A stretch of 20,058 bases of DNA from a virus: positions 1 to 20,058 of IMG/VR virus record IMGVR_UViG_3300046096_000092; one strand, 5' to 3'. Positions 4,433 through 18,290 of the stretch are shown piece by piece (the stretch's first letter is position 1; each line of letters opens with the position of its first letter). Below the pieces are notes generated by a model. It was not told where the DNA came from and did not search any database. It saw only the letters and a list, made by a program, of their open reading frames with translations. The position numbers and the translations under genes were made by a program.

Positions 4433-4768
4433 ATGACAGTTACATCAAAAGTATTAGTCGCTGCTAAACAAGCAGAGAATACACAAACCACACAATACAC
4501 CGCTACCAATTGCCGGGCAGTGATTGACAAAGCCACAGCCACAAACACCACGGCGGGTAATGTCACGCTATCGGTGAACGTAGTCACTGTAAGCGGGTCG
4601 TCTGGCGCCAGTAACTTACTTGTAAGCGCACGAGCCATTGCACCGGGCGAAACCTACACCCTCCCAGAGATAGTAGGGCACACGCTAGATTCAGGCGGAT
4701 TTATTTCTACCATTGCCAGTGCAGCAAGTTCAATCACTTTGCGAATATCTGGCAGAGAAATAACCTAA
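4433..4768 (+). CDS. Hypothetical small virion protein
   Basis: A 111-residue protein with a good ribosome binding site (AAAGGA seven bases before the ATG). It is rich in Thr, Ser, Ala and Val with regular beta alternation, a conserved-looking SARAIAPGETYTLPEIVGH segment at about 67-85, and no membrane helix. Proteins of this type often follow the fibre-like gene just upstream in podophages and are usually called structural or hypothetical. In P22 order it takes the position of gene 14, but I see no clear gp14 similarity. A minor virion role is inferred from position. Confidence 0.65.
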   Translation: MTVTSKVLVAAKQAENTQTTQYTATNCRAVIDKATATNTTAGNVTLSVNVVTVSGSSGASNLLVSARAIAPGETYTLPEIVGHTLDSGGFISTIASAASSITLRISGREIT

Positions 4769-4783
4769 TGTTGTAAAATGTGA

Positions 4784-4809
4784 CCGCTGAGAATATTTGC
4801 GACCAGCGG
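4784..4809. other. Intergenic stem-loop before the ejection protein genes
   Basis: CCGCTG (4784-4789) and CAGCGG (4804-4809) can pair around a 14-base A/T-rich loop, in the 64-base gap between the 111-residue gene and the gp7-like gene. There is no T-run after it on either strand, so it is not a standard terminator. It could shield transcript ends or set the ratio of the ejection proteins. A weak promoter match overlaps it (TTGTAA at 4771, TATTTG 17 bases later). Confidence 0.35.
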
Positions 4810-4832
4810 CATCTTGAAAAAAGGATTGTCCA

Positions 4833-5570
4833 ATGGGTTTACTTTCAGCAATAGGCGGCATAGCCGGAACCTTCCTAGGTGGTGGGCCATTGGGCGGCAT
4901 GATTGGATCAACTTTAGGCGGTGCGCTTGAAGGTCAAGAATCAGCAAGCCAAGCCGCTAACATTCAATCAGCATCCGCACAGGGCGGCATTGATGAACAG
5001 CGCAGGCAGTTTGATGCTATTCAAAAACTCCTACAGCCATATTCACAGGCAGGCCATGGCGCATTAGGCCAACAACAGGCATTACTCGGTCTATCTGGCG
5101 CACCTGCACAACAAGGCGCTATCTCTGCCCTTCAAGGCTCTCCACAGTACACCGCTATGCTGCAACAGGGCGAGAACGCCATGCTGCAAAACGCATCGGC
5201 AACGGGTGGGCTAAGGGGTGGAAATACTCAAGCGGCAATGGCTCAGTTTCGCCCAGCATTACTAGCACAGACAATTCAAGACCAATACGCTCGCTTAGGG
5301 GGTCTTACAAGTTTAGGACAAAACGCAGCGGCTGGAGTTGGTAACGCTGGTATGCAAACTGGCGCAAACGTTGCTAATTTAATTGGTCAACAAGGCGCAG
5401 CTCAAGCTGGTGGCGTCTTGGCTCAAAATCAACTTGGCAATGCTATCCAAGGTGGGTTTGGCCTGGCTAATACTCTTGGCGGATTTGGAAAACAAGGAGG
5501 CTCATTCCAAGATGTTGGAGGTGTTGGCTCTGCCACAAATTCGGCATTGGCCCAATACGGAATATTCTAA
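4833..5570 (+). CDS. P22 gp7-like DNA ejection protein
   Basis: A 245-residue protein with AAAGGA about eight bases before the ATG. Residues 1-33 are Gly-rich and hydrophobic (GLLSAIGGIAGTFLGGGPLGG), able to enter membranes. The rest is Gln/Ala/Gly-rich, with QRRQFDAIQKLLQPYSQAGHGAL at about 57-79 and NTQAAMAQFRPALLAQTIQDQYARLGGL at about 132-160, typical of phage DNA transfer (gp7-like) proteins. P22 gp7 (229 residues) is packaged in the head and ejected into the periplasm with gp20 and gp16, forming a route for DNA entry. The gp20- and gp16-like genes follow in the same order as P22, and lengths agree. Confidence 0.8.
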   Translation: MGLLSAIGGIAGTFLGGGPLGGMIGSTLGGALEGQESASQAANIQSASAQGGIDEQRRQFDAIQKLLQPYSQAGHGALGQQQALLGLSGAPAQQGAISALQGSPQYTAMLQQGENAMLQNASATGGLRGGNTQAAMAQFRPALLAQTIQDQYARLGGLTSLGQNAAAGVGNAGMQTGANVANLIGQQGAAQAGGVLAQNQLGNAIQGGFGLANTLGGFGKQGGSFQDVGGVGSATNSALAQYGIF

Positions 5571-15450: not shown

Positions 15451-16074
15451 TCAAAAAGGGATGCTGCCATCAGAATCGTCAAAAAACTGATCATCAGGCA
15501 TTGCAGCATGCGTGCGATGTGCCATTGGTGCGGTCTTCAATGGGTTATGTTTTAGAGCCTGCACCATTTTGGGCAATGCTTCAGGCACAGTCTTTCGGTC
15601 AAGAATTTCGCTCGCTGTTAGCTCTGTGCTGGCTTGAAACACACCGCGCAACACCATGCGGCTACCCACACCGCCATCTTGCTTCAGATAGTCCTCAGTG
15701 CCCAACAAGAATCCGATTGGCTTGCATAGCTCGGGGAAAATGCTTGCTTGCTTAGTTACGTCTTTTTTCTGATCGTAGTCGTAAACAGTTACATTGCCTT
15801 GTTTTGGTGACAAGCTTCGAAGCTGCAAGCAGGTCATCATCGCTTGGAGCAAATAGAAGCCACTCAGTTTCGTGCCGTCTGCTTTTTCCACATAAATTGA
15901 AACCTTGGTCTTTTGGCCTGCATCGCTGGTGAAATAAATGTTCAGACCTTTGGTTCCGGTTTTTGCGGTGATGTCTTCCGCTTGTGTGATTACGCCGAGG
16001 TACTTGCCAAGTTCTTTGATTTGGTTGCCTTGCGTGTCAGCTTTTCGTGCTGCGTTAATGTCGAGGTTATACAT
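15451..16074 (-). CDS. SSB-like ssDNA-binding protein with SSB-type acidic tip
   Basis: A 207-residue protein. It starts MYNLDINAARKADTQGNQIK, has a beta-rich body (GLNIYFTSDAGQKTKVSIYVEKADG, then GNVTVYDYDQKKDV, likely an OB-like or related fold) and ends DDSDGSIPF, very like the DDDIPF tip by which bacterial SSB recruits repair and replication proteins. Phage proteins with this start are sometimes annotated as single-stranded DNA binding. Its neighbour upstream is a Sak4-like ATPase, and Sak4 recombinases are known to depend on a partner SSB. Likely role: coat phage ssDNA and help strand annealing. AAAGGAAAA before the ATG is the ribosome binding site. The fold itself is not certain. Confidence 0.68.
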   Translation of the reverse strand: MYNLDINAARKADTQGNQIKELGKYLGVITQAEDITAKTGTKGLNIYFTSDAGQKTKVSIYVEKADGTKLSGFYLLQAMMTCLQLRSLSPKQGNVTVYDYDQKKDVTKQASIFPELCKPIGFLLGTEDYLKQDGGVGSRMVLRGVFQASTELTASEILDRKTVPEALPKMVQALKHNPLKTAPMAHRTHAAMPDDQFFDDSDGSIPF

Positions 16075-16094: not shown

Positions 16095-16748
16095 TTAAGC
16101 AGTGGTTTGGGGAATTGAGTAGAAGTCTTGAATGTCTTGATCAACTTGCGCTAAGTCGTTATCAATGTGCAGGTCTTTAAATAGTCCCATTGGACTTTTC
16201 GAGCAATCTTGCCCATTGGTCTGGGTGACAAACTTGTAATTGCCGTTTGTAACTTCGGTGCGCAGTACGATCGTAAAGTACCCCTCTGGCACAATAGTGT
16301 TGTCAACCATACGGCCAATTGTTTGCATACGAATGTTTCCAAATTCGTCTGTCCTGGTGTGTGCCATGATATACACGCGCCGATGATCAGCCAAGTCACC
16401 CGCAGCATTGAAGATGTTCCATGCCCCCTTGGCAACATCGTTGTATTTTGCATATCCAGTTTCTGCGCTTCTGTTTAATATCTCCGTCAGCATAACCGCC
16501 TGGTAATCATCAATCACAACAATGTCGTGAGGTGACTTACGCATGATTTTCTCAATCATGACCGGGTCGCTGGTTCGGATTACGTTGCCATCGTCCTGCA
16601 TGCTTACCCGCTTTTTCCATCCGGCTGATTTGAATGGCAGGGGTTTCTTGATGCACTGGATTAGCAGCGTCTTGGTTGGGTCTAGGTTTCTCAGGCTGGT
16701 GGATTTACCGCTGCCGGATGAACCTAGTATTAGTGCTGCAATGCTCAT
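16095..16748 (-). CDS. Sak4-like phage recombinase ATPase
   Basis: A 217-residue P-loop ATPase. Walker A is GSSGSGKST at residues 9-17, Walker B is DIVVIDD at about 75-81, and a YIMAHTR sensor-like strand follows near 136. Size and arrangement fit the Sak4/AAA_24 group of RecA-like phage single-strand annealing proteins. Such proteins promote recombination of phage DNA and work with an SSB, and here an SSB-like gene follows 20 bases downstream. An excellent GGAGGT lies before the ATG, which overlaps the previous gene by ATGA. No second domain is present. It could also be another phage P-loop ATPase; the SSB neighbour favours Sak4. Confidence 0.78.
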   Translation of the reverse strand: MSIAALILGSSGSGKSTSLRNLDPTKTLLIQCIKKPLPFKSAGWKKRVSMQDDGNVIRTSDPVMIEKIMRKSPHDIVVIDDYQAVMLTEILNRSAETGYAKYNDVAKGAWNIFNAAGDLADHRRVYIMAHTRTDEFGNIRMQTIGRMVDNTIVPEGYFTIVLRTEVTNGNYKFVTQTNGQDCSKSPMGLFKDLHIDNDLAQVDQDIQDFYSIPQTTA

Positions 16749-17005
16749 ACACCCACCTCCAACTGGTCAACCGTGTACACTGATTGCACGATTTTTGCAA
16801 ATTCTGCAATGTCTAGCGCTTCTTCTTTTGTGCCACGCTTTGGGTAAGCGGCCATACACAATAAAGCACGCATGCGTTTGTTTTGATTGTTTAGTTCCAA
16901 GATGTCATGCCGCGCATCTTCAAAGGCATATTGCACAGCAGCGGCTGATTGTTTTACCATTGCTGCGGGGCTGCAAAGGCTCCATTGTTCTATTGATCTG
17001 TTCAT
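16745..17005 (-). CDS. Small hypothetical protein upstream of the recombinase
   Basis: An 86-residue protein. The frame is open to an ATG at 17032, but the ATG at 17005 follows a clean AAGGAAAC ribosome binding site in the same leader type as other units, so it is the chosen start. The protein is helical (PAAMVKQSAAAVQYAFEDAR, then LELNNQNKRMRALLCM) with a KEEALDIAEFAKIVQSVY end, and has no known motif. It starts a transcription unit with the Sak4-like and SSB-like genes, ending in an ATGA overlap with the former, so it may aid recombination, but nothing in the sequence shows this. Confidence 0.62.
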   Translation of the reverse strand: MNRSIEQWSLCSPAAMVKQSAAAVQYAFEDARHDILELNNQNKRMRALLCMAAYPKRGTKEEALDIAEFAKIVQSVYTVDQLEVGV

Positions 17006-17031
17006 ATCGTTTCCTTGTTTGTTGAGTTTCA

Positions 17032-17062
17032 ATTGTAATCGCTTTTACTGTGTTTTTTGCAA
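17032..17062 (-). promoter_or_regulatory. Promoter candidate for the 17005-15451 genes
   Basis: On the minus strand, TTGCAA (17062-17057) and TACAAT (17037-17032; five of six bases match TATAAT) are separated by 19 bases, within an A-rich stretch. The -10-like element lies 26 bases before the ATG at 17005. The -35 part is inside the 3' end of the 50-residue gene. Spacing is long, so activity is uncertain, but it parallels the element before 15313. Confidence 0.42.
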
Positions 17063-17197
17063 TTCTTTTACATTTATTTCACTCATATCGTTAGGGTCTG
17101 GCGGGTATGGCACATCTAGCAGCTTGCAAAGTTCTTGCATAAGGCGGTAGGCTGTGTCTGATTCCATGCCAATAGAAAAGATGTCGGATGGTGTCAT
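17045..17197 (-). CDS. 50-residue hypothetical acidic protein
   Basis: A short gene whose ATG overlaps the stop of the 66-residue coiled-coil gene (ATGA). The peptide reads MTPSDIFSIGMESDTAYRLM, then a QELCKLLDVPYPPDPNDMSE stretch and an INVKELQKTQ end. It is acidic and helical with a Pro-rich turn and no membrane helix. No family was recognised. Evidence for a real gene is the exact overlap shared with the whole chain and the fact that it fills what would otherwise be an unexplained gap of about 190 bases in a packed operon. Confidence 0.6.
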   Translation of the reverse strand: MTPSDIFSIGMESDTAYRLMQELCKLLDVPYPPDPNDMSEINVKELQKTQ

Positions 17198-17394
17198 TTG
17201 TTTTTTAATTTCTGTTGCAATGACTGTCTAGGCATTTTTTTTAACCCTGCCACTTCTTTTTTTAGCTCTGCGATTTCTGCATCCATTCCCTGCAATCTAT
17301 TGCGTAGTGCATCAAAAATTGTCGTCATGGCGGCATCGAGTGCCTTTACATCGGATTGCGTCAATCCTGTTGGCGTTCTGTTGAATAGGCTCAC
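17194..17394 (-). CDS. 66-residue coiled-coil hypothetical protein
   Basis: The frame can be read from an ATG at 17553, but that version would overlap the 91-residue gene by 65 bases and contain the whole 33-residue gene. A GTG at 17394 has GGAGG seven bases upstream and overlaps the stop of the 33-residue gene (GTGA), so it is chosen. The protein begins SLFNRTPTGLTQSDVKALD and continues as a coiled coil (IFDALRNRLQGMDAEIAELKKEVAGLKKM) with a basic end. It resembles many short phage coiled-coil proteins with no known role. Confidence 0.62.
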   Translation of the reverse strand: MSLFNRTPTGLTQSDVKALDAAMTTIFDALRNRLQGMDAEIAELKKEVAGLKKMPRQSLQQKLKNK

Positions 17395-17492
17395 ATCATC
17401 CTCCGCATTGTTTCCAATGCACGCACAATGGATCGGTATGGTGTATGGCCGAATCGGTGATACATGGCGCACAGTCTGAAAAACGCAGTCAC
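17391..17492 (-). CDS. 33-residue basic hypothetical protein
   Basis: A very short gene between the 91- and 66-residue genes. It starts with GTG in a GTGA overlap with the previous stop, with a perfect GGAGGT five bases upstream, and ends in a GTGA overlap with the next gene. The peptide (TAFFRLCAMYHRFGHTPYRS, then IVRALETMRRMM) is basic and aromatic, like the short Y-R-R-x-G-x-S/T-P-x-x-A-(I/V)-R peptides often found in phage early operons. No function is known. Without it, the next gene would have no good start. Confidence 0.6.
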   Translation of the reverse strand: MTAFFRLCAMYHRFGHTPYRSIVRALETMRRMM

Positions 17493-17764
17493 TTGTCACC
17501 TCCGATGTGGTGGGCGCGTTCAATTCCACGGGCAAATAGATTTTCAAAATCACGCCCGTGGTGTCCTTTGTTATATTCGCTTATATAGATTTCTTGAATC
17601 TGCTCATCAGTCAACGAAACCTGTACTGGCTGCGCAAACGCTTCCGTCAGTGCTGTGCGGAGAGCTTCGTAGGATTCAACCGCCTCACTTACGTCCCATT
17701 CGTAGGTGCGAGCATCACGGATTTTGTAGGCCAGAGCCATTAGTGTGTCGACTGTGTGTATCAT
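17489..17764 (-). CDS. Small hypothetical phage protein
   Basis: A 91-residue protein with GAGGA about seven bases before the ATG. It is helical (VDTLMALAYKIRDARTYEWD, then VESYEALRTALTEAFAQP) with a second region VSLTDEQIQEIYISEYNKGH and an FARGIERAHHIGG end. The L-T-D-E-Q-I-x-x-I motif with a terminal F-A-R-x-I-E-x-A-H is common in small phage proteins of unknown function. Its start overlaps the acidic gene upstream by ATGA. Confidence 0.65.
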   Translation of the reverse strand: MIHTVDTLMALAYKIRDARTYEWDVSEAVESYEALRTALTEAFAQPVQVSLTDEQIQEIYISEYNKGHHGRDFENLFARGIERAHHIGGDK

Positions 17765-18123
17765 GCCAAATCCTCCGCAGTGATTTTCAGTTCTTGGACA
17801 TTAAGAACTCTCCAGTACCGAATGTTTACGTGCTTTTTTGCCCACTCCACAATTAACGCTTTCAGCTCAGCTTTTTCGTCGTCATCTACATCAGCAAAGC
17901 AGTTGTCGTACACCTCGCCAATTTCCTCGTAGGCGCGTTCGTCGCACACCTCCAGAAAGCTATCAACGTCAATGCAATACGCGTGACTTAGTGCGACTTT
18001 TTCGCCTTTCCAGTAGGTGGCTCCAATCTTGTCGTCGGTTTCTCCATAAAGATAATCAATTAGGTCGCCCATTGATTCGTGCTGGAAGTTTTCCTCGTCT
18101 GTGCTGTAGCAGTATTCAGTCAT
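17761..18123 (-). CDS. Highly acidic hypothetical early protein
   Basis: A 120-residue protein; the GTG at 18126 directly before the ATG is an alternative start. I count 30 Asp/Glu against 11 Lys/Arg, a strong net negative charge. Sequence landmarks are TEYCYSTDEENFQ at the start, ATYWKGEKVALSHAYCIDVDSF at about 35-57, ERAYEEIGEVYDN near 63-75 and a YWRVLNVQEL end. Related phage proteins with an F-x-x-D/E-E-R-A-Y-E-x-x-G-E core exist but have no function that I know. Strong acidity is also a trait of DNA-mimic anti-defence proteins; this is only a hint. Confidence 0.65.
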   Translation of the reverse strand: MTEYCYSTDEENFQHESMGDLIDYLYGETDDKIGATYWKGEKVALSHAYCIDVDSFLEVCDERAYEEIGEVYDNCFADVDDDEKAELKALIVEWAKKHVNIRYWRVLNVQELKITAEDLA

Positions 18124-18290
18124 CACACCACCCCAGCCAACAATACAGCCGTACCCACCACAGCTATGGCAATGATGATTAAGTCAGTTAGCAAGAATGG
18201 CGGCTCTTGCTTGATTGGCTCGCCCAGGTGATTGAAGTGCGTGCGGTATGCGTTGGGCTGGCAGTCGCTGTTTGTGTTACTTGCTCGCAT
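18123..18290 (-). CDS. 55-residue small membrane protein
   Basis: A short gene with AAAGGA about eight bases before its ATG. It overlaps the end of the HTH gene by 14 bases and shares its stop with the start of the acidic gene. Residues 1-33 are polar (SNTNSDCQPNAYRTHFNHLG and onwards); residues 34-55 form one hydrophobic helix running to the end (LTDLIIIAIAVVGTAVLLAGVV). The topology would be a C-terminal anchor. Small inner-membrane proteins in early operons sometimes block superinfection or alter host functions; no family was recognised here. Confidence 0.6.
   Translation of the reverse strand: MRASNTNSDCQPNAYRTHFNHLGEPIKQEPPFLLTDLIIIAIAVVGTAVLLAGVV

Follow-up and report, generated by a model that had tools for sequence, protein, structure and literature searches.

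Three short overlapping genes ahead of the Sak4/SSB module in a phage early operon

The DNA analysed here is an entire IMG/VR virus record (IMGVR_UViG_3300046096_000092, 20,058 bases), called the window below. On its minus strand, between a gene of 91 residues and one of 86, lies what looks like a gap. An earlier reading, made from the letters alone, filled this gap with three short genes of 33, 66 and 50 residues, and set aside a 119-residue protein in the middle frame as spurious. This raises two questions. Which frames does the phage actually use, and what might genes this small be doing just ahead of a recombinase?

The plus strand of the window carries P22-type head-completion genes (head closure Hc3, phrog_578; adaptor Ad3, phrog_637) and an endolysin. 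An early operon on the minus strand encodes a Sak4-like annealing protein and a single-strand binding protein (SSB). The gene order before Sak4 is p121, p91, p33, p66, p50, p86, where the numbers are lengths in residues. The SSB gene comes next after sak4, and judged by this order and by similarity the recombination module is of the HK620 type. Coordinates are collected in Table 1.

Table 1 Features of the operon, with the related features placed on other records
Feature	Position	Strand	Remarks
p33	17391-17492	minus	33 codons, GTG start; core micro-gene of the close group
p66	17194-17394	minus	66 codons, GTG start; optional insert
p50	17045-17197	minus	50 codons, ATG start; core gene, in 10 of 13 compared loci the last one ahead of Sak4
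p91/p33 junction	17489-17492	minus	GTGA overlap
p33/p66 junction	17391-17394	minus	GTGA overlap
p66/p50 junction	17194-17197	minus	ATGA overlap
GGAGGT, p33 ribosome-binding site	17498-17503	minus	5 nt before the p33 GTG, within the 3' end of p91
GGAGG	17400-17404	minus	part of the p33 codons CGG-AGG (Arg-Arg); lies 5 nt ahead of the following gene's GTG
119-codon reading	17194-17553	minus	GTG start; overlaps p91, p33 and p66
Sak4-like single-strand-annealing protein	16095-16748	minus	phrog_2872, 5.8e-78; 44% identity to HK620 Sak4
Phage SSB	15451-16074	minus	phrog_743, 6.2e-32; 31% identity to HK620 SSB
p86	16745-17005 (from its ATG)	minus	inserted between the leader and Sak4 in the window phage
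Conserved 39-nt leader AAGCGATTACAAT...AACAAGGAAAC	17006-17044	minus	between p50 and the next start codon
p91	17489-17764	minus	gene before p33; variable family, replaced by other genes in some relatives
p121	17761-18126	minus	phrog_1672-like (4e-14), function unknown
p55	18123-18290	minus	small protein, one C-terminal hydrophobic segment
p91 family occurrences	window 17489-17764; L002:8672-9031; L011:8274-8417; L005:4018-4263		
BPP-1 ORF with RLYxLYR motif	NC_005357 38483-38575 (= L157:3495-3587)		blank in RefSeq, hypothetical in PV330005

Related loci, which carry L numbers here, were gathered by scanning IMG/VR with Sak4, p91 and p66. Some neighbours of the three genes are sporadic in them. 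Among the relative loci compared, p121 is present only in L082 and L083, and p86 has no tblastn match in the IMG/VR loci compared. The p91 family (MxHTVDTLMALA...) occurs in more than one copy on some contigs; its C-terminal parts vary and include QPVR-like strings. The leader ahead of the p86 or Sak4 start shows strong conservation in the relatives and may contain a promoter or operator.

Start signals and conserved frames

The coordinates of the three genes, and their links by GTGA, GTGA and ATGA, held up on recalculation: at all three junctions the start and stop codons overlap by 4 nt. Such overlaps are in themselves little proof of anything, because 15 of the 20 listed consecutive gene pairs on the minus strand overlap by exactly 4 nt.

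The start signals say more. The perfect GGAGGT that had been noticed for p33 is indeed present, and the p33 start pairs with the anti-Shine-Dalgarno sequence at -10.8 kcal/mol, a value matched by 0.4% of the ATG and GTG codons on the minus strand. The p66 start, at -9.5 kcal/mol, is in the top 1.4% of these codons. Pairing at the 119-codon start is weak (-5.3 kcal/mol; 10% of codons are as good). No ribosome-binding site was found for p50 in the window phage, the pairing there being +0.2 kcal/mol (69%). In L005 the end of p66 contains AGAGGA, which is missing from the window. This suggests that p50 of the window, having no site of its own, probably depends on coupling, by termination-reinitiation. 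PMC10666635, a study of translational coupling, states that coupling requires such short overlaps.

The decisive evidence is conservation. All 13 distinct sequences keep the p33 frame open. Its pN/pS is 0.26, and none of 1000 permutations of the variable columns came out as low. For p50 the ratio is 0.25 over 12 distinct sequences, again with 0 of 1000 permutations as low. Both genes are under purifying selection in their own frames. The 119 frame, by contrast, has a pN/pS of 1.49 over the p33 DNA, and is interrupted by stops in four of the 13 sequences (L002, L004, L005 and L010). All four stops are TAA; they fall at just two positions, and three of them share one codon, so that at most a few independent events lie behind them. 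The sequence-only reading had proposed to compare synonymous and nonsynonymous change per frame in relatives, and had named conservation of the longer frame as what would speak against it; it is the short frames that are conserved.

For p66 there is one relative to compare with, L005, which is the sole other carrier found. Of the 10 differences between the two, 7 are silent and 3 change the residue; a result as low came up in 14 of 5000 permutations. This is support, not proof, that p66 is under selection.

L005 also bears on the 119-residue reading itself. That reading adds a 53-codon extension to p66, and inside this extension L005 has an in-frame TAA. This means that p66 there starts after the TAA, and that a 119-residue form is impossible in L005. 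It is true that in the window no stop interrupts the 119 codons, and that the frame aligns along its length with L005 at 77% identity. Where the extension has matches in other loci, though, these map to DNA that also codes for p91 or p33. That the middle frame really makes the 119-residue protein, leaving p33 as the spurious one, is next to inconceivable given the stops, the ratio of 1.49 and the weak ribosome-binding site, and this protein was rejected for its stops in relatives and its lack of selection. The earlier verdict of spurious stands; the ATG from which the protein was said to be read does not, since the reading begins at GTG 17551-17553 and the extension contains no ATG. On sequence grounds, the three short genes in the early operon look real.

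Core genes and exchange at the junctions

There are 13 loci in which Sak4 has at least 84% identity to that of the window over at least 161 residues (L002-L012, L041 and L073). All of them have p33 and p50, and only L005 has p66. In this close group p33 and p50 are the stable core genes, and p66 is one of several interchangeable junction genes.

The neighbours of p33 were tabulated for 15 loci. L008, L073 and L089 are left out of this table as duplicates of L007, L012 and L087 over the p33 stretch; so are loci L077 and higher on contigs already represented, and L124/L125 are not in it either. In 14 of the 15, p33 overlaps the preceding gene by 4 nt, and in 14 the following one. What follows it varies: p50 in seven loci, p66 in two, a gene resembling PAPS reductase in two, a 95-, a 116- and a 72-residue gene in one locus each, and no overlapping gene in the remaining one. 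What precedes it varies too, and can be a p91-like gene, a 113-residue gene or the membrane-type p55.

The PAPS-reductase-like gene (phrog_424, 1.7e-43) sits in the p33/p50 junction of L003 and of L041 (4050-4814). In both it is an auxiliary metabolic gene occupying a micro-gene slot.

A second slot lies between p50 and Sak4. Of the 13 loci compared, 10 have nothing in it; otherwise it is occupied by p86 in the window, by an 83-residue gene in L096 and by about 210 extra nucleotides in L006. The L006 insert (4752-5004) falls within the conserved leader. In it is a candidate ORF of 67 codons, which starts at TTG and shares 4 nt with Sak4; the insert came nowhere near the gathering score of any Rfam family.

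Because start and stop codons overlap at the gene ends, a junction can gain or lose an entire gene and the chain stays unbroken. A gene's ribosome-binding site usually lies in the gene upstream of the junction, and the 4-nt overlap would let a terminating ribosome restart. Swapping at the junctions could also reflect neutral mosaicism, and not design.

Further away the picture is less uniform. ORFs resembling p50 adjoin sak4 in the more distant loci L014, L015, L035 and L055. In Sak4 loci outside the close group, some of which have little upstream DNA, p33 was found only in L019; p33 is thus not essential to Sak4. Downstream of Sak4, some relatives have short ORFs with Gly-Tyr-Gly-Asp-type repeats (L012:4250-4429 and L087:5221-5454).

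The proteins and their possible relatives

Both p33 and p66 are basic, with pI 11.3 and 10.0, and p50 is acidic, with pI 4.2. AlphaFold2 predicts two helices for p33 and two for p50, at low confidence (pLDDT 69 and 71); p33 is probably a small basic two-helix peptide. The earlier remark that none of the three has a recognised function agrees with searches of Pfam, PHROGs and NCBIfam. These gave no match with E below 0.1 for p33 and p50, and weak matches only for p66 (best Pfam 3.8e-4, under the cut-off of that family; best PHROG 5.5e-4, function unknown).

Comparison with named phages likewise gave little. The window DNA has no DNA similarity to them, tblastn with p33, its L019 homologue and p50 reached E-values of 2 or worse, and tblastn with the L035 form of p50 and with the look-alikes from L146 and L154 (see below) gave nothing useful. 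There was no match of p33 in plasmids. None was found either in 399 genomes from the family of Acidovorax MR-S7, and this empty result is not evidence of absence. A wider p33 profile, run on 399 genomes reached via a Burkholderiaceae MAG (many of them shared with the Acidovorax MR-S7 set), gave four weak matches.

Clear relatives of p33 exist outside the close group. L019 has a homologue with 50% identity to that of the window, upstream of Sak4 with two small ORFs between, and L124/L125 have homologues with 59% identity. In L124 the gene after p33 is an ERF recombinase (PF04404, 7.7e-14), of a family other than Sak4. All three proteins, from the window, L019 and L124, share the motif RLY-x-(M/L)-Y-R-R-x-G and are encoded near a recombinase gene. 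The relation between p33, L019 and L124 can be called firm. The motif occurs in micro-ORFs of 30-36 residues, for which the label RLYxxYRRxG micro-proteins was coined in this analysis. The searched text of the literature, PMC11323111 included, names the group nowhere, which is not proof that it is unpublished.

Looser searches yielded look-alikes in L146, L154, L155, L171 and Bordetella phage BPP-1. The one in L146 lies between SSB and an AlpA gene. An AlpA gene also follows the one in L171, which came from one genome out of 398 at E 3.7e-7, so that these two have a flank in common. In L154 the look-alike is flanked by a family A DNA polymerase and a phrog_93 nuclease. BPP-1, reached via L155 at an E-value of 7, has the same two flanks: its 30-codon ORF lies between bbp42 (polymerase) and bbp43 (nuclease). 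A related polymerase turned up in 954 records; seven other phages from among them were examined, and none had such an ORF at this place between polymerase and nuclease.

A profile built from the close group only ranks L154, BPP-1, L155, L146 and L171 as the best-scoring among 1709 ORFs, above the P22 and HK620 stretches that were included; since the loci had been preselected by motif or similarity, this ranking is not unbiased. The similarities of BPP-1, L155, L146 and L171 to p33 are individually weak, and the BPP-1 match to the profile spans 14 residues only. L154 and BPP-1 are likely relatives of p33, and L155, L146 and L171 possible ones. Of the weak genome matches four were inspected, L146, L160, L161 and L171; L160 and L161 looked like chance. 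Two genes before its look-alike, L155 also has an ORF with a long alanine-rich repeat of AAWAAARN type (1771-2358).

Small genes at this place are not new. In the PL operon of P22 (NC_002371) the order is kil-arf-erf, and as in the window small early-left genes come directly before an annealing recombinase. There arf overlaps erf by 4 nt, and Arf, at 47 residues, is acidic like p50. P22 differs in that it uses Erf, where the window phage uses Sak4. A passage of PMC9836394 calls Arf uncharacterised and possibly a DNA mimic. In HK620 (NC_002730) the order is kil-hkaM-sak4-ssb-abc2, which like the window has a small gene, then Sak4, then SSB. HkaM has 62 residues and Kil 37; HkaM is called an orphan in one part of PMC5928155.

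The comparison goes no further than this. With hhalign neither p50 nor p33 gave a meaningful alignment with P22 Arf or HK620 HkaM, and the p33 profile gave none with Kil of HK620 or P22. The idea that p50 or p33 is Arf or HkaM, or that p33 is Kil, was rejected for want of detectable homology, so a likeness of position and character is claimed, not membership.

The exchange of genes also has a parallel. Lambdoid phages are known for gene mosaicism, and like the group studied here they exchange genes among related recombinase-carrying phages; in the present group the exchanges are read from comparison of contigs alone. Part of PMC3945230 documents relaxed recombination by Rad52-like enzymes; the text of it that was searched does not mention Sak4.

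Possible roles of the micro-genes

The best explanation overall is that these are three genuine, coupled micro-genes, with p33 and p50 as the core and p66 as an insert, and with an accessory role in recombination or replication. As a whole this explanation is held with considerable confidence. The genes would be translated in a coupled way as part of the leftward early operon of a phage that has P22-type head-completion genes and a Sak4/SSB module. Most likely p33 is an accessory factor of phage recombination or replication. Being small and acidic and lying beside sak4, p50 may be a Sak4 partner, in the slot held by arf in P22 and hkaM in HK620. Both are most likely accessory micro-proteins of recombination or replication, with a biochemical role that is putative; the assignment of this role to p33 and p50 is a best guess, and one that may well prove wrong.

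A second, tentative suggestion goes further and should be met with some doubt. It is that p33 is a member of a widespread, unmodelled class of basic phage micro-proteins of 30-36 residues, with the motif given above, which would aid single-strand annealing or replication alongside unrelated recombinases (Sak4, ERF). Members would often be paired with a tiny membrane protein, and would be easily missed in annotation, even in BPP-1.

The tiny membrane protein also underlies the main rival, in which p33 would work at the membrane or against the host, in takeover or growth inhibition like Kil of P22 and HK620, together with the adjoining small membrane protein. Relatives of p55 directly precede p33 in L012 and L087, and a similar protein does so in L019. 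In L124 a hydrophobic ORF of 32 residues takes this position and shares 4 nt with p33, and in L155 another short ORF with one hydrophobic segment precedes the look-alike. The kil gene moreover holds the equivalent place in P22 and HK620. Yet p33 has no similarity to either Kil, the look-alikes in L154, BPP-1 and L146 have no such membrane gene directly before them, and in the window two genes separate p55 from p33. A role at the membrane or on the host is on balance unlikely.

Alternatively, the three genes might share no role and be accessory genes of the ordinary, short-lived kind, kept together only by operon compaction and mosaic exchange. The sporadic occurrence of p66 and p86 fits this, as does the fact that 4-base overlaps are the rule in this operon (the 15 of 20 pairs noted earlier). 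It fits poorly with p33 and p50, which have been retained, and kept under selection, through many rearrangements. This too we would not expect to be the answer.

Finally, p33 might be kept mainly as a DNA or translation element, either as the ribosome-binding site of the next gene or as a homology patch for recombination, with the peptide being unimportant. The bases of the last p33 codons (ATG CGG AGG A.G) hardly vary and include the site for the gene that follows, whichever it is, and exchanged genes flank p33 on both sides. The Arg-Arg codons are CGG-AGG in 13 of 14 close loci, all 13 of which have an overlapping gene after p33. The fourteenth, L087, is the informative one. Here p50 is a 10-codon remnant and the codons are CGC-CGC, so that the two residues are kept and the ribosome-binding site is lost. 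This separates the constraint on the protein from that on the site, in what is one event; the peptide persists despite the loss. In the first 25 codons, silent sites vary freely (pS 0.46 against pN 0.12), and L019 and L124 still have the peptide, retaining roughly one half to two thirds of its residues. That p33 is kept mainly as a DNA or translation element is quite improbable.

Over the first picture, the analysis adds that p66 is an optional insert to a p33/p50 core, that p50 has no ribosome-binding site in the window phage, and that p33 has relatives elsewhere.

Tiny coupled genes in early operons are easily lost if a gene caller favours the longest frame or imposes a minimum length. Here conservation resolves the real frame, and exposes a core pair, p33 and p50, leading into the Sak4 module. 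In addition, p33 leads to a small group of poorly annotated phage micro-proteins, to which an ORF of the cultured model phage BPP-1 probably belongs. With this ORF and the Sak4 system of HK620, a part played in recombination or replication could be tested directly in phages that are in culture.
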